From Adineta ricciae (Eukaryota > Rotifera > Eurotatoria > Adinetida > Adinetidae): DNA of 64,000 bases. The stretch lies in assembly GCA_905250025.1 (NCBI GenBank), contig CAJNOJ010000215.1, forward strand, positions 114,752 through 178,751, given 5' to 3'. Position numbers and translations under genes: made by a program. Shown piece after piece: positions 3,443 through 61,359 of this stretch. Every line of letters starts with the position of its first letter. The first letter of the stretch is position 1. The notes under the pieces were generated by a model. That model ran no database searches, had not been told where the DNA came from, and saw only the letters and a program-made list of their open reading frames with translations.

Positions 3443-4206
3443 TAATAAATTTGTGAACTAAACTGTATTACAATGAAAATCGACTTTCCGTTCGTTACTT
3501 TACGAGTGTATTTTATTGGAGAAGAGAAACAAACAATGTAGGAATAAAAGCGACAGATGACACTGTATAACAATCTACGAAATCATATACGTTACATAGA
3601 GATTTTCTTAAATCTGAGTAAATCTGTACTCAAACAAAGGTTATGACATAGAAGAGAGTACTTGAGGGTGAGAAATTCATGATATTCTCTCGCTGAAACG
3701 AAGTGAACTCGAGTGCATTCTCTCCGCAACATCTCGTGAAGAAAATACTCATTTCTATAAAACGAAATGTTGGATTCGATAGGATGCCTCATCATTTACC
3801 AAATGTTTTTCTATCAAAAATAATCACTATGGTCACATCTCGAAACATCGGACGCTCAAGATCAGGTAAATTTGATCCAATGATCGAATTTGCTTTTATT
3901 ATTATCATTACAACTATATATCAAAAAAGGATTTGAGATACATAATTACCTAGAGTACCTTCAGTGCATCGATACTGAATGAATAGATATTTCCTTTTCG
4001 TCACGATCAAGTAGAGCTACTTTATAAAATTGTTTCTTCTTTCTACTAATTAGTTCACTTTTGATAGTATTCATCGAAGTACTACTTGAAGAAAATTGTT
4101 TTGCTACCACGGTCTCTGCTAGCAAGCTAGAACATATAAGTACAGTGTGTTTGTGAAGAATTTGCAACAGATAAATTTTAAGATATACTATCGAAAGAAC
4201 TTAACA
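3443..4206. other. Intergenic region, BUD23 to secreted-peptide gene
   Basis: Divergent interval between BUD23 (-) and the small plus-strand gene at 4207. Short open frames on both strands lack recognisable motifs, and none has clear splice support. It should contain both promoters, but no clear core element stands out. Confidence 0.45.
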
Positions 4207-4498
4207 ATGGGACTAAGTATAATCGAATGAGAATGTTTTTCTTTGAAATCTACTCTTGATATTTTTAGTGTATGTGCTTGCTCTTGTCGTCCTTTTCGCA
4301 ATGACATTTAACAATGCTTTTTCAAATGCATCGCCATCCTCTTTAGAGATTGACTCTTTGGTAAATGTTGTCAAATCGAGGATGATACGTCGGGAAGAAT
4401 ACGATCCATATGGTTTCAATTCCATTTTGAGTCGATATTACAAACGTTCAAAATTCGATGAGATTACAGTTCCAGATGAACTTAACTTCTTCGAATAA
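4207..4498 (+). CDS. Putative secreted prepropeptide, neuropeptide-like
   Basis: Two exons: 4207-4216 and 4269-4498, joined across a 52-nt GT...AG intron (4217-4268). The joined frame gives 79 residues. Residues 1-24 are a signal peptide (MGLMYVLALVVLFAMTF, then NNAFSNA). The rest is short and cysteine-free, with dibasic sites Arg44-Arg45 and Lys62-Arg63. They bracket a 16-residue candidate peptide, EEYDPYGFNSILSRYY, followed by an acidic C-terminal peptide. A small propeptide cut at basic pairs is the architecture of many invertebrate neuropeptide precursors. No amidation glycine precedes the KR, and I cannot match it to a named family. An AATAAA overlaps the stop and another lies at about 4545. 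The structure is clear; function is inference. Confidence 0.55.
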
Positions 4499-5708
4499 AT
4501 CTCCGATGAAAAGTTCTCTCTTCTTATTAATAAGAATCTTTTTAAATAAAAAAAAAACCTCAGCAAAACATTTTCAATCATAGGTTTCCTTCTCAAATAA
4601 GAGATTTCGCATTGATGGCTAATAAATACCGCAGATGGAAAATCGATAGTAATATACATCAATTCGTTTTCTTCTTTGTATGGACATAGACATTACTGTC
4701 AAAGTTTTTCCAAGCAAAGGACCATGTGGTGGAAAAAAGAAAGAAAGATTTTATAAGTACGCATATTTGGTGCGTTGACTTGCTAAGAAATTGTTTTTTC
4801 TCTTGTCTCAATTAGCAATTTCATTTCAAAAGAAAACGGAGCGATTGATTCTTGACATTTGAAAAGATGTGCACTTTGAAATTCTTAACCCAAAGATAAT
4901 ATTATACTGATCGGTTCATTTTTCACTATTATATAATAGATTGATGGTGAGAATGAATAGTTTATATGTGAGGTATTCGAAACAAATCACGACACATGTT
5001 TCATTCAGTTGTTTCGCATCCTTGCCATAACTAATAACGAGAAAAAAAGAGGTGTACAACTCATCGACACAACCATAAAACGACCGACGTCACTCGATCG
5101 CCTATGCACACACGCGCGAGTCAATCAATTCATTAAAAATCACACGGCACAATGATACCAACAGAGATCGATTTTCATCGAGAGTGACGAAACAGAAAAG
5201 GAATACAATTCTAACCAATCAATTTTTAAGGTCAACAGTGATTGTCATTAGAATAGACAACGCATATGTTTGCTCATTTGTTTGATGAACAATCGGTAGA
5301 TAACACAAAAGATGGCACAAGAAAACAAGTCATTAGGATTGGACAAGGGTCAATGCGATGGGAATACAAACGTCAGGTTGTCTTACCCCCGTAAGCGTTG
5401 ACAAACATACTTCAATTAATCTCTCTTCTATGTATACAAATAAAACTTGACGTACATATCCATCGTTTATTCTTGTCAACTATCCTCATTGATAGTATGG
5501 GAAAAATTAGAAGAGTGCAGATTGCAAATTTTTCAATGTATATATATTTATAAGTAAAGAGAGAAGACAAAAACGAGAGAAAGAGAAAAGACAACAATAC
5601 AAGCGCGAAAAAAGGAAAAAAAAAGAGAACTTGGAAATGTAAATGGAAAGAAATAGTTTGATTTAAATTTTGAGTTTCATTTCTTCTAGTTTTTTCTTTT
5701 GTAAGAGT
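4499..5708. other. Intergenic region without genes
   Basis: Convergent 3' flanks of the peptide gene (+) and basonuclin (-). It contains A-rich and purine-rich runs around 5540-5640 and no supported coding exon or structured RNA. Confidence 0.5.
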
Positions 5709-10501: not shown

Positions 10502-13500
10502 TTACAATCGTGTACATGTGACAGATGAAACACCATGGACAAACATAGTTGGTGGTAAATCTTTTGATAGCATGTCTAAAACTTGCATATAACGTTGTGA
10601 AAGTCTTCTGTCACGCGGCGGTCGTGGTAAATATAAGTAGAGACATGATGTATTATCACTTTGTTGTCGAATAAGTTCATTAATACCTCGAATGTATTCA
10701 TCGTTCACATCAACAAATGAATCGGATGCTACTGCTGCAGTTGTTGATTGTTGTTCAGTAGAGTTTGTTGTTACGCTAGCAACAAGTTCTGATGTATAAT
10801 TATGTAAAAGACTAGTAACGTTCTCCCAAGAAATCATTCGCGTTTGTGCTTTGATACGAAGTTGTTTTAACAGCTCATCAAGGTAATAATGTGCATGAAG
10901 CGCATTCTCATTGACCGCATCGATACAAAGAAAAACTCGTAAGATTGTATGTGTTTTCCACGGTTTAACCATAGAAAGTATAGTTGCTAATTGAAACATG
11001 TAGAGACATGTAATATCGAATTGTGTTGACGTTTTGGGAAAGATGAAATTAACCTAGGCGTAGTGAAGTGAACTGTTTTTAAGATAGTAGAAGAAACTAA
11101 CTTACTGGCCAAATATCGATGAAGGATTTTCGTTCGTTTGATTCAAGATTATCCTTTTGTAGATGAATAAAGTTTCGTGCTAGGCAAACACTTTTATTCA
11201 AATGAAGTGCATCTTTAACAATTTGGACGTATGTCAGTATATCCAATTGTTTTTCTTCATCCTCTTCTCGTAATTCTTAGTCATAGGAAAGTAAAGGTTA
11301 TACTTTGAATGAAGTGACAGAAAGTGTGTTATACTTGCAAATTGCAATGTCGAATATATGTCCGAAGGAGAACTGGATTCCGAGTTCTGATAAATATTTG
11401 AACTCGTCGATCGTTGTCGTTGAAATACCGAGAGATTTGTTTTCAACCATCGTCGTTTCGCAAATGAGCGGCTATTTAGTTTATCTTCCGGCACAGTATC
11501 ATCATAAAAACCAAGAATAACTGTGTTCGGTCGTAGTCCACCTGAAACACATATTCTTTAAAAATACTATTCTTCTCAGTATAGCACAATACCTAAACCT
11601 GACAATCTCATCAGATGCATTACCCCATCACGAATATTTGCTGCTGCTGTCATATTGACAAATGCTTTGAATTTCATCTGTTTAATTAATGATATCCAAT
11701 GTGGATACTCTCGTGAACAGGAATCATCGATATCGTCATCCGCAGACGTCTTAACATGGCCCAAGATAAACAGTCCGCCTTTTTTCATATCGTTCACACA
11801 ATCAATCAGATTAATCGTTGAACGTGGATTCGAAACAAGTAACAAGATTTGCGGACGCCAAAACTTGACGTGTTCTTTGCGTGGATCAAGTAAGAGAAGA
11901 TACTTTCGTACTTGATGGAAAATTAATGCTTGAGAAATGGAGCCCCATGATGCTTCAGGAAAATCTCTTAAATGTAGGATCGCTATTAAACCTGTGAGAA
12001 TTCCAATGGCAATTGAGGCTAATGTTGTTGAGACGACAAAACACATGATAATCGATCCTATGGCACCAATGACTGCTGTATGCCATGAGAAGTATTTGAA
12101 TGTCGGTCGAAAATTGGGCGTCGATGCTAAATCGAGTGCCAGACATGCGAGATTAACAGCAAAATAAGCCAAAAGGAAGAAAATAGTTACGATACGAGCT
12201 ATTTTATTCAGAGAACCGATCAATAATGTTAACTAAACGAATAAATAGAAAATCTATTTTTTTATTCCAGTCAAGTATGACTTACTTCGACAAGAACAAA
12301 AGTAACGAACACAGCAGCGACTGGATTTCCATGGCGAGTAGTTCCTCTTTTGAGCCAGCGTAATAATGGTCCTAAATAGGAAGGAAGACTCAGAATTATA
12401 TTTTACAATAGAAAGATATATTCACCGAAGATTTCATCAATTGCCAATGCTTGTAATATTCGCGATGCACCGATTATACCTGATAGACATGCTGAAAATA
12501 CAGCAAATACAATACCGATAATTACAAAAGGTTGCCAGATATTAATTTCTTGTAAGAATAAATAATTGTTCAATAAAGTATATCTAAAATGTTGGTCAAT
12601 ATCAAACGAAATCTGATAGACATATGTCATCTTTCAACAAACCGATCTGTTGTTGCAGCGATAAGTAGAGTTTCAATGATATAAATAATAAATACATAGA
12701 GAGTAGCGGAAATTGAACCAGTTGGAATACTTCGATTTGGATTATTCAATCCGCCTAGAAATACACAAATATAGACATTATTCTGCAAAAAAAGATCATC
12801 GTTTATGATAAAAACTCAATTAAACAAACGCATAGGTTTAGGATTTCACGTACTCCATTCAACTCTATTTGCTCCAGATAACAATCCAATAATACTTGAA
12901 AAGAGGACACCAAACACACTGACGAAATTCGTTGTATCTCCCGTCGTATAATCAATCGTATAATTAGCATAAAGATTACCAGTCCATGTAGACGAATTAA
13001 AACTTGTATAATGTCCATATAAGTGATCAGTTTTATTAAAAATCTGTTCTTCATTTTCATATGCATAGATATTCACTTTAGGTATAAGGACAAGATGTGG
13101 ACCACGGATAAAAAATGAAATCACAACCATAAGATAGACAAAACTAACGAGAATAAATATCGAAAATGCAGCCATTGAATACAACCATGAACCGAGTAGA
13201 CATGTTAACAAGCTTAGACAATTAATTATAGTTCCATACAGAAATCTCCACCAACGTGTGCTATAAAAAATATTGGCTTTACCTATATACAAAACCTAGT
13301 TTATTTCATCTGATGCCATAACATTTGTCTTCTTACTTCCAGGACCGAAACTATCGACTAATGCTTCGACAAGTGCAGCAACGCTTTGCCCGTTACCAAT
13401 GACTTGTGCAGAAAAGAAGAGTACACCAATAGCTCCACCAAATTCTGGTCCCAATGCGCGTGATATCATATGATAAATTCCACCACTTTCAATAGCTCCA

Positions 13501-13955
13501 TTTGTTGACAATGAACAAATACTTAGTAGAGTACAAAAAAGAATAACAAAACAAAGACTCAACTGGAGTAATGTTTGTAAGACACCTGCATGAGCAAGGA
13601 CAAAACCAATACGCATAAAGATTGAGATTGCCAACATCGATAAAGCAATTGGACAGAAAACACCGGGAATAGTTCGTAGTGTACGTTTCGAACTATTGGA
13701 TAAGATCTCTGGATGACTCTGATTTGAATTGATGATGGTTGTTGATTGAGAGATTGAATTCTCATGTTCGTGCAAAGTATGTAAAGATGTTTCTAAGTAT
13801 GTTTGACGATTTGTAGGTAGATTAAAACGGTAATAGGAAGAAAAATGATTATTTGATACTGAATAGCTTTGTTGTCCATCAGAATTTATGTTTGTATTCG
13901 TAGATGAGGAAAAAGCACGCTGAATTCGTGTTCTTAGATGGTCGAAAGCATTCAT
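10502..13955 (-). CDS. SLC12A9: SLC12A9-type cation-chloride cotransporter family protein
   Basis: Multi-pass membrane protein of the SLC12 family, SLC12A9 (CIP1) branch. Start ATG at 13955. After a Ser/Asn-rich cytosolic N-terminus come PGVFCPIALSMLAISIFMRIG and NGAIESGGIYHMISRALGPE (TM1-TM3 region), then TGDTTNFVSVFGVLF, ASRILQALA, APNFR-type ASTPNFRPTFKYFSWHT, QALIFHQVRKYLLLLD, HVKFWRPQILLLV and KKGGLFILGHV. The C-terminus has FIDIWPVNF, FQLATILSMVKPW, LYLYLPRPP and ends VHGVSSVTCTRL, as in vertebrate SLC12A9. The order and spacing follow the whole family, so the gene looks complete, with about ten exons and short introns (the first joins GPGS to KANIFYSTRWW). Transport activity of this branch is poorly defined; some data treat it as a regulator of other cotransporters. 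Confidence 0.93.
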
Positions 13956-22672: not shown

Positions 22673-23980
22673 TTATTTGTCTAAGAAAATTTTCGTGCAA
22701 GTTGATGAGGGTGAATTAGTTTCATGATCTAATTTAGCGATCGTAGTATAATGAAAGTTTTCATCCAGTAGCATCTTTAGATATTTTATACAATGACGAA
22801 GTCCAAAAAGGAAGTTTTCATCGGGTTCACTTTTAGATGATGACGGAAAGACATGGGCGAAATCCACAAGGCGCACATCAGCTTTCACCTCACTGTCTTG
22901 CGCTTTTCCCTCGTAGATTATCAATAGCGAGGAGGCAATAAAAACAAATTCAAATTGTTTGACCATGATCCGTTCAAGGTCATTTAATCGATCGAGTACT
23001 TTGTGGACTATTGCACGAATATTACGTTCGGGGGCACCGAAAAAATGCGCCAGACCATGGAGAACTTCATCTTTTGTCAACGATCGCGAGCATTTCTTAT
23101 CGTGATAAATATACGAGTTATCAGATTGCTGGTAAGATTTCCAGCCGAGTAATTGAAAGCCAATTTCAGCAGCTGGTTCAAATTTTGCTATTTGTCGTTC
23201 GATTTTCTCCGGTGTTGCTTCTTGATCGTAAGTGATTCGGCCAAGTTTGATGTCAATAACACAGGGACATTGGTATGATCGAATGGCATTCTCTAATTCC
23301 AGATAAGTCATGCCACCGAATTCGTATGTTCCTAGTAATTGAGGAAGAAATGGTCGTAATGCACGAAGTTCAGAAGAGGCGTTTGCAGAGAATATATGAG
23401 TGTAGAATTTATGTTCACGTGGACCACGTGGTGGGTTAAGCAATGGTTTGAGAACATTGCCATTTGAACAACGTTGTAATAAACCAAATTTGGTCTTGGA
23501 TCGTCCGTAAAAGTGTCCAGCAACTTGATGTACAAGTGGTTCGGTGCCTGGTGGCAATTGTGGTAAGGTCATCACGTCGTCCGATATCATCTGAAGAAAA
23601 TGGGAGGAGGTGGAACGCACGATTAGCGATGAAGCATTTAACGAAAGCATTTCTTTCTATCGTAAGGAAAACAGAAAAACGTACTGAGGATCTCTACAAG
23701 AATATTTTGAATGAGAATAATTGCCATGCTTGTATTACTTCAAGTTGGATTGGCTAATCTTATTGTCTTTCTTTTCAAAAACGAGTCCGAAAACAAAACA
23801 AAACAAACTTCAACCAGTACAACATTTATCTTCAGGAAAGACAACCTTTGATTAGTGTTAGAAATTAGTTTACAACCCATATCCGATTTCCGAGGCGGAT
23901 ATTAAGTTCTAATTACTGTATAAAAACACTCTTTTCTTCTGGTTAGAATTGTAAACACTTACTGATTTCGCTTCTGCCAT
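22673..23980 (-). CDS. IPMK: Inositol polyphosphate multikinase
   Basis: Kinase that phosphorylates inositol phosphates (IP3 to IP5) and, in many animals, PIP2. The start exon is at 23980 (MAEAKS) and is joined across an intron of about 370 nt to MISDDVMTLPQLPPG in the main exon, which runs to 22673. Motifs appear in family order: QVAGHFYG, NPPRGPREHKFY, the catalytic PCVIDIKLG (PxxxDxKxG), RSLTKDEV, the SSLL motif in IASSLLIIYEGK and the metal-binding VRLVDFAHVFPS, then a GLRHCIKYLKMLL helix. The loop between SSLL and DFAH is short, without the long insertion of the human enzyme. The main exon also opens upstream of the acceptor, but splicing to MAEAKS restores the expected start. Confidence is high. 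Confidence 0.93.
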
Positions 23981-25695: not shown

Positions 25696-26076
25696 TGATT
25701 GTTGAATGTAAAGAGAAAAATAACATTATAGTATACAAGACAAGATTCTCTATAGATCGGTTTCGTTTACTAGATCAAATCGACCAATGAGAATCAATTG
25801 GCGCTAGTAGTACTAATTCATTTTTAAAAACATAAATAATCTGAAATTGACGAAAGAATCGAGCGATATCAGTCGAATAAAACAAAACATTGACTTACTT
25901 TTTCCAATATCAATGCTTTTCGAGTATGCTTCTCATGTTACTATATATAAACACATTTCCTTGACGGAGGTTTTGGTTATGTCAAATGGTTGACTCGTCA
26001 GAAACATCTATCCAATATTCACTACTCAAGATTTGAATAGAAAGTACACATTCATATCGATTAATAATAAACAAAT
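25696..26076. promoter_or_regulatory. Divergent intergenic region, zinc-finger gene and TMEM33
   Basis: About 380 bp between a minus-strand and a plus-strand gene, so it must supply at least one promoter. It may also contain a first exon of the zinc-finger gene (about 25902-25940). No clear TATA element. Confidence 0.35.
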
Positions 26077-26907
26077 ATGGTTCTTGTTGAAGACGTTACA
26101 TCCAATGCATCATCAAATGCAAATTCTAATAATGATAGTACATCTACTTCAACTTCTCCACCTCCGAGAAGTACAACTCAAACTCCTCCACGTTCAACAC
26201 CGTCATCTCCATCGCTGATCAATGTTTTATTAGAACGAAAAACTGATGCAGTCTTATTATTATCACGTTTAGCAACAATATTCTTTACACTAATGTATAT
26301 CTTACCATTTGCTCGTACAAATGCAGACGCAAATGTTTATTATACGAAAGCGTTGCTTGCCTCGGCTGTCACATCAGCCTTACGCTTACGACAACGAATT
26401 CCAGGATTTCAATTATCACGTGAATTCTTCGCTAATGTAATCCGTGAAGACAGTGCACATTATTTAATGTATTCATTTCTATTTCTGAGTGGCTCATCGA
26501 TGACAATCGTGCTCATACCTATTTCAACGTACGCTATCTTGCATTCATGTTCATTTTTAGCACAAATTTTAACAAGTTATCCGTTCATTAAGTCTAAACT
26601 TGATCGCATAACAGAAAATCATGCAAATTTACTTCGTTTTGTTGCATTAAATGAAATTATTCTTATGCCATTATTGATTCTCTCGATTTTTGTTGCACGT
26701 TCAAATTTCTTATTAATCTTTATGTATTATCGATTTTTAACATTACGTTACGCATCACATCGCAATCCATACACGCGTACATTATTTTACGAACTTCGTC
26801 AAACTGTTGAGCATTTATGCAGTCGGCCCAATTGCCCACCATTTATCGCTCGACTTTGTTATAATGCTATAGCTTTCGTCAATCGTCTAGCACCAGTCGT
26901 AAATTAG
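26077..26907 (+). CDS. TMEM33: TMEM33 / Krueppel homolog 2, ER membrane protein
   Basis: A single exon of 276 codons, unusual in this intron-rich window. Endoplasmic-reticulum multi-pass protein that in other animals regulates reticulons and the unfolded-protein response. The N-terminal 50 residues are Ser/Thr/Pro/Asn-rich and not conserved. From about residue 55 the family sequence starts: DAVLLLSRLATIFFTLMYILP, KALLASAVTSALRLRQRIP, FQLSREFFANVIREDSAHYL, LRFVALNEIILMPLLIL, MYYRFLTLRYASHRNPYTRT, and a C-terminal PFIARLCYNAIAFVNRLAP. Three to four membrane segments are evident. It is full length relative to the vertebrate protein. Confidence 0.95.
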   Translation: MVLVEDVTSNASSNANSNNDSTSTSTSPPPRSTTQTPPRSTPSSPSLINVLLERKTDAVLLLSRLATIFFTLMYILPFARTNADANVYYTKALLASAVTSALRLRQRIPGFQLSREFFANVIREDSAHYLMYSFLFLSGSSMTIVLIPISTYAILHSCSFLAQILTSYPFIKSKLDRITENHANLLRFVALNEIILMPLLILSIFVARSNFLLIFMYYRFLTLRYASHRNPYTRTLFYELRQTVEHLCSRPNCPPFIARLCYNAIAFVNRLAPVVN

Positions 26908-27197: not shown

Positions 27198-30100
27198 ATG
27201 GCCGCTATCACTCGCGCGTCTTTTACCGACGACGATTCGATTGGCGAACATTCACCTTTAGAAATGGTTCGCATGGATGCATCGAAAGGCAAACTTTCAC
27301 TTACTCAACATGATCCCGACGATCATATCATGTTGGATGATTCAGGTGGAACATTAGGTGGAAGTGGCTATACTCAAAATGATTTTCTGTTAAATTCAAG
27401 TACGGGTCTCATTGAAGGAATCAATCGTGAATACGAAATTCCAAATCTATTCACGTATAAAAAGGTAAAATGATCATTCGTTTGTTCTATTCAACAAAAA
27501 TCGTTGTTTGTTTTTGTGTAGATTGAAGCATTGCTCGAAACAATGCAAGATGAAAATTCTGGTCTGCCGATAAAATCTGTTAAAAGTTTTATGTCGAAGA
27601 TTCCGAGTGTATTCACCGGTGGTGATTTAATTCAATGGATTTTAAAAACACTCGATGTTGATGATACAGGTATGAACATATCCACGACTTGTTAGGGAAG
27701 AAAAACAAGCTAGACATTACCATTTTAGCTGAAGCACTTCATCTCGCTAATCTGATGTCATCTTATGGCTATGTAAGACTCTTATCGACTTTTTTTCCCT
27801 AAATTAAAACTCATCTTTCTCCATCATAGATTTTACCCATCGAGGATCATGTTTTGACGATAAAAAATGATGGAACATTCTATCGTTTTCAGGTATATCT
27901 GACGTTCTCTCTTCGGTTCTTGAATGAGAAAATAAACCAATGTGTTCTTTTTCAGACACCATACTTTTGGCCATCGAATCACGGCGAACCCGATAACATT
28001 GATTACGGTAATACTCATTCGTCTTTTGATAATTGTTGATTTCCTTACCTATCATTTCTTTTCTGCATAATTAGAAACGACTGAGTTAATTGAAACGAGG
28101 TAGAATATTTTGCTGCTAAAACTAATCCCTAACATTCACTATTAACTCATTTTCTCTGTTTCGCTCTCGTTTCTCATCTGATTAGCTCTGCTACACATCG
28201 CTGTTCTTTTTTTCTTCTTAGCTGTTTATTTGTGTAAACGAACAATGCAAAATAAGACTCGCTTGGAATTAGCTGATTACGAAGCGGAAAACTTGGCTCG
28301 ATTACAGAAACTTTTTGCCAGAAAATGGGAATTTATTTACATGCAAGCTGAAGCACAAATCAAGTAAGAGATTGTTTTCCGTGTACTGAATACTCTCTAC
28401 GGCATGTCTGTAATTAGAGTGGATAAAAAACGTGATAAAGTCGAACGAAATGTTCTCGATTCGCAAGAACGAGCTTTTTGGGATGTTTATCGTCCTGCAC
28501 CTGGTTGTTTCAACATGAGCGAGCAAGATATCAAAAAATTAATGCGACGTAAAGCACCGGTTCTCTCGTCACATGCATTATCAAGTAATCTAAGGAAAAC
28601 ATCGTCGACATCTGCATCGAACACTGGACCCGCATCAGCCTTAGCATTCGCTGCCAACAAGAACCTTATGACAATGACTGTCGGATTATTGTCGGCAGGA
28701 CCTCCATCAGCAAATCAAGATCCATACTCGTCATTGAATCGAATAGGAATGTTGCGTGAATGCGATGAAACTGCACTGATTGAGCAGTTATGTCATGAAA
28801 TCGAATTCCTCAAACATCGTCTGGACCGAAGATGTTTGAAAACGTCGAAAGTCTGCGAAAGTTATGTGTCTTATTTCGAACAGTATGCAGAATTTGATCC
28901 ATTCCTAACACCTTGCGAGCCATCCAATCCTTGTAAGTACTCCTTTTTCATCTCTTATTCATTGATAAGACGAATGTATTTTTATAACCTTATAATTAAA
29001 ATTCTCCTGACTTTTTCTTATCAAAAAAAAAACATTTCTCGTACGAATACTCCAGAAATGCGATCAGACTCACGTAACATGATCTTTGAGTTACGTCAAT
29101 CATTAGTTACACTGAAAAGTTTTCATTTACAGAAAATCAATTTCTATTGTAGGGATAACTGATTCAACTGACTTGTGGGAATTGGAAAAGATGGGCAATG
29201 CAAAAGAGCTTTCGTCACGGCGTGTTAAACGATGGGGATTCTCAATCAACGAATTACTGAAAGATCCAATCGGTCGCGATCATTTCTGGAGATTTCTTGA
29301 CAAAGAATATTCCAGTGAAAATTTAAGATTCTATGAAGCCTGTATCCAGCTTCGATGTCATACACCACAGCAAGATGTTCATAATCGAGTGCATGAAATT
29401 TATAACGAATTTCTCTCCCCAGGTAGATTGAAATCTTTTGCATGAACGGAGTTTAATTTCGTCTTAAGGTGCTTATTATTCGATTAATATTGATCAACGT
29501 GTGATGAATCTAACGAAAAATAATATGACACATTCTCCTAGCCGTTACACATTCGATGAAGCTCAGGTTTGCTTTTAAATCTTATGAAGATTTTCCTTGA
29601 AATTTGTCTGTCTAATGTTTTTATAGGATCATATTTTCAACCTAATGAATCGTGATACATACGCTCGATTCTTACGATCCGAAGCTTATAAAGAATTACT
29701 CTTAGGTGGAAAGAAAAAGGTAAGTCATGAATTCGACGTGAGAAAAAAGACTTGATTTAATTCTCATTCTTCCAACTAAAAAACTTCAATGCATTCCAAT
29801 CATACTCTCTACGTTGTTTTTCCACATGCCTTTTATTGACAACTATGCATAAGACTGCACACACATACATACAACCATATCAAAACTAAAAGAATGGTTG
29901 TACTGATGGTAGTAATAGTTATGTGAATATCATCTCAAAGTTCCCCTCTCCCTTTTCTACTTCTATTCATTCTCAACATCATCATCATCTTCTTCTTCTT
30001 TGTTTGTTGTCGTTGTTGTTTTGTTTTTAGTTATCCAAAAAATATTAATGTAAAAAAAAACACATTGCGCGCAGATATCAGTAATAAACTATTCACGATT

Positions 30101-33698: not shown

Positions 33699-35021
33699 CT
33701 AATGTTGCTCACCAACATCGATTAACAAATGTGTATAAAGATGATAGAGTGTCGTGTTTAGTAATTTATATATTACATTATTAACACCGTCGGAATCGAT
33801 TCGATTATTAGCTGTACGCAGGACTTTCATCCGAGCTGGATTCAATTTCTGATGACTATGCTTTAACATCTTATATCGTGCAATAGCTGCCGGTGGTCGA
33901 TCAAGTATTAGTTTCTTTTTAACGATACGTTTGTGCATATCATCATCTTCACCACCCCAGCCCCAATAATTCGTTGAATAACCATTGACCAATAGATAAT
34001 GCTCACGACGCATTGCTAGAAAATAAGAAATAGTACACATAGTCTTGAAATTGAAGAAAAAAATGTGAAATATGGAAACAAATTCTTTACATTTTCTTTC
34101 TTGAAAAAGAGAATAAGTTTCATTTTTGCTGAATTAACTGTATGTCTATTTCTGTTCGAATAATTATAGTGCTATTCATATTCATTTTTAGATATGAAAG
34201 TAAAGCAATTCACATTAATTACCTAGAACACCACCTACTAATTCGGGATATGGTAAGTAGAATTGAAATTTATCAACAGCAACACTCAAATGACGTGGAT
34301 TTGTTGGACATGAATACATATTTCGATCGTCGATTAGCAATAAATCAACATCATGCATTATAAAACATCGTGTATTCGGTTCTAATTTGAGAATTTCTTT
34401 GAAACATCCATTCATAACAATACCTTTATTAAAGGTCTTATCGTATGCTTGTTCACAAACGAATATTCGATAATCTAATTGTTGTCGTTGTAAGAATATG
34501 TGTGTATGAAACAGAAATTGTTCTAAAATTTCCCAACGATTACGATACGGCACAATGATAGCTACTTTGTGACGTGCTAAACATGTTTTTGGCTGATGTC
34601 GTCCACCCAACTGCACTTGAAAGTGATATGAAGATTCATTGAAAAGAGAAAAATTTTTCGGTAATCCTTTTATGATCAAAGGTCCCTCTAAATCGGGCGG
34701 TATTGACGGACAGAGTACATTCGTTGAATTGTGTTGATGCATTGTTGAAATGAACTTTTCATTAAAAGAATCTAACATTTTTTTGAACGCTGCTTGAAAA
34801 ATAATAGATTGATTATTAGGAATTTTCATTACTTTGGTCGTTTGTGATGAATCTTCCGGTTTGACAGTTGTCGATAATTTCTGTTTATCATGTTCGCCGT
34901 CTACGTGTGTAGTAGGATGACGTAGAATATACATAATATTTAAAAAGCTGGTAATTATCATTAAAATAGAGCTTAACAGACATAATTTGTAGAGGTAATT
35001 TTGTTGGTGAAACACAATCAT
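33699..35021 (-). CDS. Beta-1,4-galactosyltransferase (GT7 family)
   Basis: Golgi type II membrane enzyme that transfers galactose from UDP-Gal to GlcNAc, or xylose/glucose in other subfamilies. The start at 35021 gives a short cytosolic tail and a signal anchor (LCLLSSILMIITSFLNIMYI), then a stem. Catalytic motifs: VAIIVPYRNRWEILEQFL, FIMHDVDLLLIDDRNMYSC (DxD-like DVD), PYPELVGGVL, and NGYSTNYWGWGGEDDDMHKR, the family hallmark. Exon 1 is 35021-34223, intron 34222-34016, exon 2 34015-33699. Complete and probably active. The subfamily (B4GALT1-7) cannot be fixed from motifs alone; the length, about 370 residues, fits B4GALT1-6. Confidence 0.93.
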
Positions 35022-38000
35022 TGACTGCTAGATATGAAAGAAACAAATAACTAGTTTCTGAAGAGATCAGAAATAATATTCAGGTAAAGAAAAATTCTAC
35101 GATAGTATTCGAATTCAATGTTGTCAAAGTTTACCTAATTCTCATCGGAGGCAGCGGACGAAATTTACTTCGACATACGAAGAACGAATTGAAGGACATT
35201 GACGTGTATTTCAATAGTGATAAGAAGACTTTATGATTCATTTCAACGACAGATATTAAACAGTAGATATTCTATTTACAAAGTGTACACAATGCAACTC
35301 ACTATTCTCCTATCTCTCGAAGTTTCTTCTTCCCACGTTCTAAATATGCAGCACCGTTAGCTTTCATTTCTCTTACTTCAAGATAAGAAGCTTATCAAGT
35401 TTGTAAAGAACTACCAAAGAAAAACTAGCAATGACAGTGTTACTATTACAGATAGTTCAAGATAAAAAAATAGAGATGGAGTCCTTTCTGTCTAGTAGAT
35501 AATTGTAGCACGAATAAGTAAAAATGAGATGCGTTCTTATATGTAAAGATAAAATAACAGTCCAGTGACGTGCGATGCGTGTAAGACATAACGATAAAAA
35601 GAAGAAAAGCAATAGATTCGGTTTTTATCTTAATGCGTTGTTTGTCAGCTTATTCGAATTAATACTTTTCGCCGACTCTTTTTATTTAAAGTAATAAAAT
35701 AATTCAAAAGACGTAGACTTTTTCCGTTGATAAGATATGACATGTTCGTATGATTAATCCTTCAACATTAAAGTACCTAAGTAACTTATTCGTCAGTGTT
35801 GCTACAAATCAGCTGTTAATATTTTGTGATGAGTAAGATGTACAAATGTAGTGATTAACATTTAGACATAAAATTTCATACATACTTGATTGGTTTTGTT
35901 GATTTGTTAATCGACTTAATTCACTATACGAGTTTCAAAGTAAATAATAAACAAAAATGAAAAGTTATTGGTAAGATTTTGTCGAATAGTTATAGTCATG
36001 GTTCAATGAAAACAGAATTAATCAAGCGGAACTAGGAAAAGAACAGACATACTTAGTTACTCGGTGTCCTATTTAACATCTTACATCGTGACAAGACGTT
36101 TCCAAAGCAAAATATCGGTATTAAGGTCAAGTTTTAACGTAATCCTTACTAGCTGTTTCAGGTATTTCATCATGTAATAATCAGAAACTTAAATAGTGGC
36201 CTGTGTAGCAATATTAAAGTGACGTATAACGCCATGCTAAAACTATACACTTATCGCTGTATGAAACTCTAGCTAATCAACAAAATTCAATGCCCATCGA
36301 AACAGAAGATGACGATTTTGATGGAATACAATGAAGTAGACGAAACTTCGTTAATTCTCTTACTAGTCAATTAACAAAGATGTTTGTTAGACTCAAATGA
36401 AAGTAAATAAAAGGTTTGTGAAGGTTATTTAAGAGTGATGATATTATAACAAGCTAAAAATGAGGTTTATTTCAACAATTGAAATAGTATCTTTTAGTTG
36501 TTTCATGTGTTATAAATGTTATTTATTCAAAATCAGTTCAAAAACTTATTATTTTAATAAATTGAAATCGTTTTGGTAAACTTCTTTTTTATTTGCAACT
36601 CTTATAAGAAAATAAAACAAGTTATCGTGTTTTCAACATCTATTCTCCAACAGGCGATGCGAATCATTTCGAATAAATCTTAAATATGCAATTCTTCACA
36701 AGATGATGAAATCAATGAGCAGACTGTGTTTGTAGCATCATAGGCTTACCGAACAGAAGCCGTATGATCTTTGACTAATGTCATGATCAGAGTATATAAT
36801 TAATTTATTTCATAAAGCAAGTGTTACAGTGAACAATTATCAAAATTCACATACGGTCACCATTGTTTAAATGGTTCATCAGAAATTATACATAAAATAT
36901 TAGATACTCTTTAACTTTAGATATTTACTCATTGTTAGCTCAAACTATAGGAACATCAGCGAAAGAGAGAAGAATCGAGAAAAAGCGACCTTCGTAGGAC
37001 ACGAACTCACACCTTCTGCTATCCGGACAGATGTCCTAATCCACTTAGACTAGAAGGACCATCTCAATCTCCAGCCTAGCGTTGTGTAATTCATCACAAA
37101 CGCTAACACTTATAGAGAAGTTGTCTAACGACAAGCAAGTAGTACAAATAGTCGACAAAAACAAAATAAATTCCTAAATCATTTTGGTCACTGGACTTTT
37201 TATGAATTATCAATGCTAATTTTTGGTTACAAACAGTATTAAAATATGGAAATCAATGATTCTATCGTATCATTGAAGATATGCAAAATACCAGTGCTAT
37301 CGTTTGTCATTGTTGTATTGGTCTACTATTCTTTCTTTTCACAATATCAAATCATCTAGTGTAAAGTTTTTCAAAACTATAGAAATGTACTCACCTGCAG
37401 CTTTAAACAACAATGCTAATGCCGTACGTATAGAAGACAGAACTTATGATGTAAATTGAAAAGTGATTTGCAAATTATAGTTTCTTCTCTCTCATTATAT
37501 CAGCATAACGAAAATGATATATCATATCAGGATTTCCATGATCGTTAAAATAAACGGAGAGAACAGCGATGCTTCTTTTAGTAACTATATTAACTCGTAT
37601 TTTCTTTGCAAGAGATCGCGCTCGTTGTGATCGCGATCAGTGTCATCTGAAGAACACATTTGTAAAGATGCAGTTTTCAAAACATATTTGTAATTCAACG
37701 GCTATAAGTATCATATAGTTATCGTGTGATCAAATGTTTGAATACGAATCGTCGATTTGACACTTAGGCTACACTAAATTGCACAATAGTTATAGCATTA
37801 GAAATTGAAAAGAAATAAATGATTAGACAAAACTTATGGTGTGCTATTTGAACTTGCTTTTTGAATCTTAATAGTGTAGTATACAAACATGTTTCTAAAA
37901 AGGTGTAATACTCTGCTATGAGATCATTTCAATATACTTCTGACGCATCAGTTTTATCTATTTTGTCGACGCTCATGACAGAAAAAAGACTTTTTAAAAA

Positions 38001-60498: not shown

Positions 60499-61359
60499 TT
60501 AAATCAAGCTTTTCACATCCGCTGTCTGTATCATAGAACAACCATGAGCAATCAGTTCATTAAGACGTAGATTTATATTGTTTTCATCCACACCACGGCA
60601 TGCATCTTTTATAATATGAGTTTTATAACCATTTTCAAGTGCATGCAACGCGGTTGCATAAACACACACATCTGTTGCAATACCAACGATAAACACTTGT
60701 TGAACGTTATATCCTTTCAGTCGGGAGTGTAAAGTTGTTTCACGTATTTTCATGTTATCCCAAAATGCGGAGTACGAATCAATGTCACTGTCATAACCTT
60801 TGAATAGGTTGATTACTTGACGATTTTTATTTGATTTCACGATTGACAGATCTTGGTGTAGTTCAGCACCATGCGTATGCTGTACACAATGCACAGGCCA
60901 AAGGATTTGTTCCACACGAGATTGACGTTCATCATCGAATACAAATATTGCTGTATCGAATACTTTCAATTCTTCCATTGACTTTGAATCTTTTGCTAGT
61001 AGATGTGCTCGTAAAGGTAGATTATCATAGAACGAAATATGATCAGGTGTATGCCAATCTTGCGTATAAACAACGACATCAAATTTGATTTCGTCCAATA
61101 ATTTATTTATTACAGGTATGACTTGTTCTCCTTGGTGTTGACTGGGACAATTCTTCAGAGCTAATGAACCATCAATGAAATCATATTGTACATCAACGAT
61201 TAGTAGGGCATTGACATGCTTTGATTTTTTCTTCGGACGAATTGCATTTGGAATAGCGTCAGTTATTGCATCAACTCTGTAAAATCAAAATCAATCGATT
61301 AGTTTTCAAATTAAACAAATGTATTACGCTCTGCAAATCGCCGCGTTCACGTTACCCAT
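60499..61359 (-). CDS. Nicotinamidase (isochorismatase family)
   Basis: Hydrolyses nicotinamide to nicotinate for NAD salvage, a route present in many invertebrates but absent from vertebrates. The start exon (61359, MGNVNAAICRA) splices at about 61330 to VDAITDAIPNAIRPKKKSKH. Key sites: catalytic Asp in ALLIVDVQYDFIDG, metal-binding Asp/His in VVYTQDWHTPDHISFYD, a Lys in the LFKGYDSDIDSYSAFWD segment, and the nucleophile Cys in FIVGIATDVCVYATALHA. It ends at SMIQTADVKSLI (stop at 60499-60501). The length, about 270 residues, is normal for the family without the N-terminal extension seen in Drosophila. Its tail faces PTP4A's tail across 184 bp (convergent). Confidence 0.92.

Follow-up and report, generated by a model that had tools for sequence, protein, structure and literature searches.

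The 64,000-nucleotide stretch of DNA analysed here (the window) contains a short two-exon gene at 4207-4498(+) that is likely, from the pattern of its sequence, to encode the precursor of a processed secreted signalling peptide with a receptor-read core, that is, a neuropeptide or hormone. The product is probably real and so far undescribed, and it probably represents a new non-amidated peptide family. As a gene it is of an ordinary kind, and comparison within one genome makes its reality well supported. A protein search of the genome with E values of up to 10 found three places, namely the window gene itself, a close copy on contig C169 and a diverged duplicate on contig C48. Two diverged paralogs that share a conserved core would offer a defined ligand to try on orphan receptors. 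The gene also illustrates how gene finding can miss a signal peptide when the first exon is very short and the intron tiny. Rotifers and the other gnathiferans have been little sampled for neuropeptides: the excerpts available of a 2021 survey (PMC8557429) state that the one study with three Rotaria species found very few precursors, and present a survey of the gnathiferans as the next frontier.

Gene structure

The genome searched for relatives is a 130-Mb assembly in which the window lies on contig C215. The coding part of exon 1 is 10 nt long (ATGGGACTAA; 4207-4216(+)), is identical in the C169 copy and is matched by a 10-nt ATG exon in C48. It is followed by a phase-1 GT-AG intron of 52 nt (GTATAATC...ATTTTTAG; 4217-4268(+)), whose position and phase are common to both other copies, and by exon 2 (4269-4498(+)), which encodes the remainder of the precursor and the stop codon. 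The spliced frame translates to 79 residues (MGLMYVLALVVLFAMTFNNAFSNASPSSLEIDSLVNVVKSRMIRREEYDPYGFNSILSRYYKRSKFDEITVPDELNFFE), confirming the anatomy proposed in an earlier note on this DNA. That note also held that the start methionine is restored only by the splice. This is not quite so, as an ATG is already present inside exon 1 and the A|TG junction creates a second methionine at position 4, but the first in-frame ATG of an unspliced reading is indeed Met15, and most of the hydrophobic stretch would then be lost. The genome carries the bdelloid spliced leader (see below), but trans-splicing at the 4268 acceptor in place of cis-splicing was rejected by the same reasoning, because it would again put the first in-frame ATG at Met15 and remove most of the signal peptide.

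The sequence TATAAG, a possible TATA box, lies 72 nt upstream of the ATG (4135-4140(+)). C215 and C169 both have it at -72, and C48 has it at -76 and -68; an additional TATAA[AG] at -184 in C215 is absent from C169. AATAAA overlaps the stop codon (4494-4499(+)) and recurs at 4545-4550, and either may serve as a poly(A) signal.

The nearby SLC12-type cation-chloride cotransporter gene (10505-13955(-); AA_permease E 1e-12, SLC12 E 8.6e-6, the latter just under the cut-off) has four likely introns of 52, 53, 54 and 59 nt in the window and of 50, 57, 55 and 56 nt next to the C48 gene. The 52- and 60-nt introns of the precursor genes are therefore of ordinary size. These four introns were kept from six candidate groups; for the group at 12312-12233 the second-ranked candidate of 53 nt, which has the better donor, was taken, and the groups at 12042 and 13091 were dropped by eye as spurious.

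A scan for the whole anatomy (an ATG exon, an intron of 45-65 nt, a hydrophobic start and a bracketed peptide) found one instance on the two strands of the window and none in any of 10 size-matched first-order Markov controls, a result that serves as a guide only because these criteria were chosen after the gene had been seen.

The precursor and its predicted peptide

The presumed signal peptide comprises residues 1-24, encoded by exon 1 and by 4269-4330(+) of exon 2, with cleavage presumed to fall after Ala24. The maximum 11-residue Kyte-Doolittle mean of the N-terminus, a measure of hydropathy only, is 3.0 in the window and 2.99 in C48. A spacer leads to the predicted N-terminal dibasic cleavage site, Arg44-Arg45 (4388-4393(+)), which is kept in all three copies, both of its codons differing synonymously between the window and C48. 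Next comes the predicted 16-residue peptide EEYDPYGFNSILSRYY (residues 46-61; 4394-4441(+)). Within it lies the conserved core DPYGFNSILSR (residues 49-59; 4403-4435(+)), identical to C48 at 11 of 11 residues. The predicted C-terminal dibasic site, Lys62-Arg63 (4442-4447(+)), is kept in C169 and is not found at the same place in C48. A basic site nevertheless follows the core in each of the three copies, differently placed in C48, and is predicted to be cleaved.

The two dibasic sites that had been described around the 16-mer, RR at residues 44-45 and KR at residues 62-63, are thus present, and the reported absence of an amidation glycine also holds: the residues before the C-terminal basic site read YY-KR in the window and LQ-KKR in C48, so that the glycine characteristic of C-terminally amidated families is missing from both. 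The window precursor has no cysteines and the C48 precursor has two, both within its hydrophobic start.

A signal-like N-terminus, an RR site and a short length would suit any processed secreted peptide, including an antimicrobial, mucus or cuticle peptide without a signalling role that is released by furin-like cleavage. There is some chance of this, if a small one. As read from the sequence, the 16-mer is acidic and its core contains a single Asp and a single Arg, whereas antimicrobial peptides are typically cationic. A non-signalling role also sits poorly with 11 core residues that stay invariant while the rest of the precursor evolves fast. A signalling peptide is the reading preferred here.

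The copies on C169 and C48

The C169 gene has 89% protein identity to the window gene in the matched stretch, and the surrounding DNA is 93% identical over about 3 kb. It keeps the frame and an intron of 52 nt, and differs in length by 18 nt (six codons), in frame, near the C-terminus. It is read as the other haplotype of the window locus.

The C48 gene is far more distant (34% identity in the matched stretch, E = 1.3e-4; 35% identity between the precursors overall). It has a first exon of 10 nt (ATGGTTTCCA), a phase-1 intron of 60 nt and a product of 86 residues. The region of the peptide reads RR-QVFDPYGFNSILSRFVDHEPYYNLQ-KKR, so cleavage at these dibasic sites would give a peptide of 25 residues, against 16 in the window, and its N-terminal Gln may be modified to pyroglutamate. 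What the two genes share is RR followed, after two freely varying residues, by DPYGFNSILSR with an aromatic residue on each side.

A relative of the SLC12-type gene adjoins the C48 gene on the same side and in the same orientation as in the window. The 9.9 kb around the C48 gene contain no match to a zinc-finger-like frame (weak C2H2, below the cut-off) that lies at 5.7-6.9 kb of the window. Excerpts of PMC5818035 mention an old genome duplication in bdelloids. The layout of the two loci fits such an event, and the genes may be ohnologs. A 901-base query, used to look for another haplotype at the C48 locus, found nothing in the genome but C48 itself.

Selection on the core

The two pairs of copies contribute very differently to the argument. 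Overall, the C215 and C169 genes have a dN of 0.056 and a dS of 0.059. Before the 17-codon block that contains the core they differ by two replacements and two synonymous changes in 43 codons, within it by none in 17 codons, and after it by six replacements and one synonymous change in 19 codons. With dN close to dS and replacements following the core, this pair, taken by itself, therefore gives no sign of constraint across the precursor as a whole. Its members have diverged too little for that, and the old pair, window and C48, carries the argument.

In that older comparison, the 13 codons of RR and DPYGFNSILSR show nine synonymous changes, four identities and no replacements; 7 of the 11 core codons are changed synonymously. 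The wider block of 17 codons (RREEYDPYGFNSILSRY) has the same nine synonymous and four identical codons together with four replacements (E/Q, E/V, Y/F and Y/F). Outside the block, replacements are found at 26 of the 36 aligned codons before it and at 17 of the 19 after it. When the 72 aligned columns, of which 25 are identical, were shuffled 200,000 times, an identical run of 11 residues was reached 9 times. Selection between these copies is thus concentrated on RR and the core while the flanks are mostly replaced, as in neuropeptide precursors. Such a pattern, in which the core is invariant and the rest of the precursor evolves fast, is typical of peptides that are read by a receptor.

The near equality of dN and dS between the haplotype-like copies is also what a chance open frame combined with a chance splice might show. 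That the gene is such an accident is very improbable, since C48 keeps the exon structure, the frame, RR and the core, and the changes in RR and the core are synonymous only. Against chance, this relative with the same gene structure and codon pattern is stronger evidence than the anatomy scan.

The earlier note had expected conservation beyond chance between Arg45 and Lys62, and inside this genome it is found close by, at residues 44-45 and 49-59. The conserved unit is RR and the core, not the 16-mer as bounded by RR and KR, because the C-terminal KR is not kept in C48. Most simply, the core would be the active part.

Comparison with known peptide families

In its general plan the gene resembles the precursors of invertebrate neuropeptides and peptide hormones, which are short and have a hydrophobic N-terminus, a spacer, a peptide after a dibasic site and fast-evolving flanks around an invariant core. 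It is unlike them in that the predicted C-terminal cleavage site differs between the duplicates and the amidation glycine is absent.

None of the three precursors had a Pfam match above the cut-off; the sole match to any of them, Phage_DsbA (E 0.072), lay below it and was judged to be due to chance. NCBIfam had no match to exon 2 of either the window or the C48 gene, a weak null because that library is prokaryotic, and neither the window precursor nor the C48 peptide region matched the PDB sequences. The unbroken core string DPYGFNSILSR was not found in the literature searched. Of 12 strings taken from or near the core, 11 had no match there, and the other, GFNSIL, occurs in one mosquito serpin paper. 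No such peptide was found in the available portions of the rotifer and gnathiferan neuropeptide literature, the supplementary lists in which precursors are usually given being outside the search. Within the scope of these domain, structure and literature searches, the description of the peptide as undescribed is upheld.

A search of the genome with a degenerate DNA pattern for [FY]DP[FY]GF[ND]-like codons, allowing one mismatch, gave 23 matches (backward control 2), the three exact ones being the genes already described. Reading covered 20 of the 23 loci, leaving out those on C485, C811 and C821; the 17 further loci among them, inspected by eye without splicing and on both strands, included none that was precursor-like. 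No relative was found in the bacterial/archaeal and viral contigs scanned, as expected of an animal gene, and none of the 25 (viral) and 40 (genome) stretches that fitted the pattern was confirmed. A fourth, weak match on C284 (E = 0.83), attractive at first sight, was rejected as chance. It lies antisense to an ATPase-like frame which, from its motif, we take to be a proteasome-type AAA ATPase; the match has four relatives, one nearly full-length with an internal stop and three partial, one of them with stops.

There are likenesses to pedal peptide/orcokinin, many members of which lack an amidation glycine, as here, and to prohormone-4. The FNSI of the core is similar to FDSI, a motif found in pedal peptide-type peptides (excerpts of PMC4990251), and LSRYY in the window and LSRF in C48 resemble the LSRFY of honeybee prohormone-4 (excerpts of PMC8398477), the likeness extending to a short [LF]SR[FYL] in the honeybee IDLSRFYGHFNT and the oyster MSVDFSRL. 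It is improbable that the gene is a very divergent member of a known family such as these, no longer recognisable as such. Each of the three precursors has one copy of its peptide, whereas the excerpts of PMC4990251 and PMC5814872 give 8 and at least 6 copies per precursor in a bryozoan and 13 in a starfish. The rotifer core differs further in the additional conserved residues around the motif, DPYG ahead of it and LSR behind. The pedal peptide/orcokinin family alignment, in the part available of PMC5814872, has conserved hydrophobic positions near both ends. An FDSI-type pattern found 20 matches in this genome (backward control 5), none of them in an open frame that carries more than one copy; the pattern is strict, and genes of this kind may have escaped it. 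As for prohormone-4, its LDL-receptor class A domain with six cysteines was found in none of the three rotifer precursors, the only two cysteines of the window and C48 products being those in the hydrophobic start of C48, and the rotifer peptide comes after a spacer and RR.

Two further families were compared with the rotifer gene. Excerpts of PMC6425005 describe FCAP-related peptides in three Rotaria species, with eight or nine copies of 11-residue peptides; these are likewise products of rotifer neuropeptide precursors, but the present gene has a single longer peptide, the comparison being by description only. The peptide ends in Tyr, as in the NKY family of lophotrochozoans. The central NKY motifs FW[RQ]P[LM]G[YG] or G[YF]WIWMPAQG (excerpts of PMC6425005) are both absent, by reading, from the three rotifer precursors. 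For pedal peptide/orcokinin, prohormone-4, FCAP-related peptides and NKY, a tested defining feature is in each case missing here.

Proposed processing and action

Transcription would start near the TATA box, and removal of the 52-nt intron would join the start codon to the sequence for the signal peptide. The product would then enter the secretory pathway, where a prohormone convertase is predicted to cut after Arg44-Arg45 and, in the window copy, at Lys62-Arg63, releasing the non-amidated EEYDPYGFNSILSRYY. A G-protein-coupled receptor is the commonest case for such peptides, and the released peptide would most likely act through one as a neuropeptide or hormone, expression in neurons being presumed in the former case. 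The part read by the receptor is probably [YF]DPYGFNSILSR[YF], and the C48 duplicate would make a longer form with the same core. There is about an even chance that the two paralogs arose by the old duplication from one ancestral hormone, which now exists in two forms with the C-terminus cut differently (16 versus 25 residues), and that they define an undescribed non-amidated hormone family of rotifers, perhaps of all Gnathifera.

Spliced leader and other features

The bdelloid spliced leader was found at 41 sites in the genome, always with a single mismatch that falls on the first base (backward control 0). At the two sites inspected, GT follows directly after the leader, as in spliced-leader RNA genes. 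These sites support the rotifer origin that the earlier note assumed and point more narrowly to a bdelloid. Of the 41 sites, 28 form 14 minus/plus pairs with starts 151-154 bases apart, and six more are paired at 371 or 467 bases; the contigs concerned include C6, C8, C43, C77 and C99. This arrangement suggests divergent paired SL RNA genes.

Elsewhere in the window there is a tRNA-Ser with anticodon GGA (36985-37059(-)), and open frames with domain matches to inositol polyphosphate kinase (22676-23656(-)), TMEM33/Pom33 (26071-26904(+)), GGL and RGS-DHEX (28368-29159(+)), the N-terminal region of a group 7 glycosyltransferase (34218-35027(-)) and isochorismatase (60502-61284(-)). On contig C94, around 146309, a stop-to-stop frame of 129 residues, which begins with a signal-like sequence (MSLFNKILLIALLMCSCTVHG) and contains several dibasic sites, may encode another secreted precursor.
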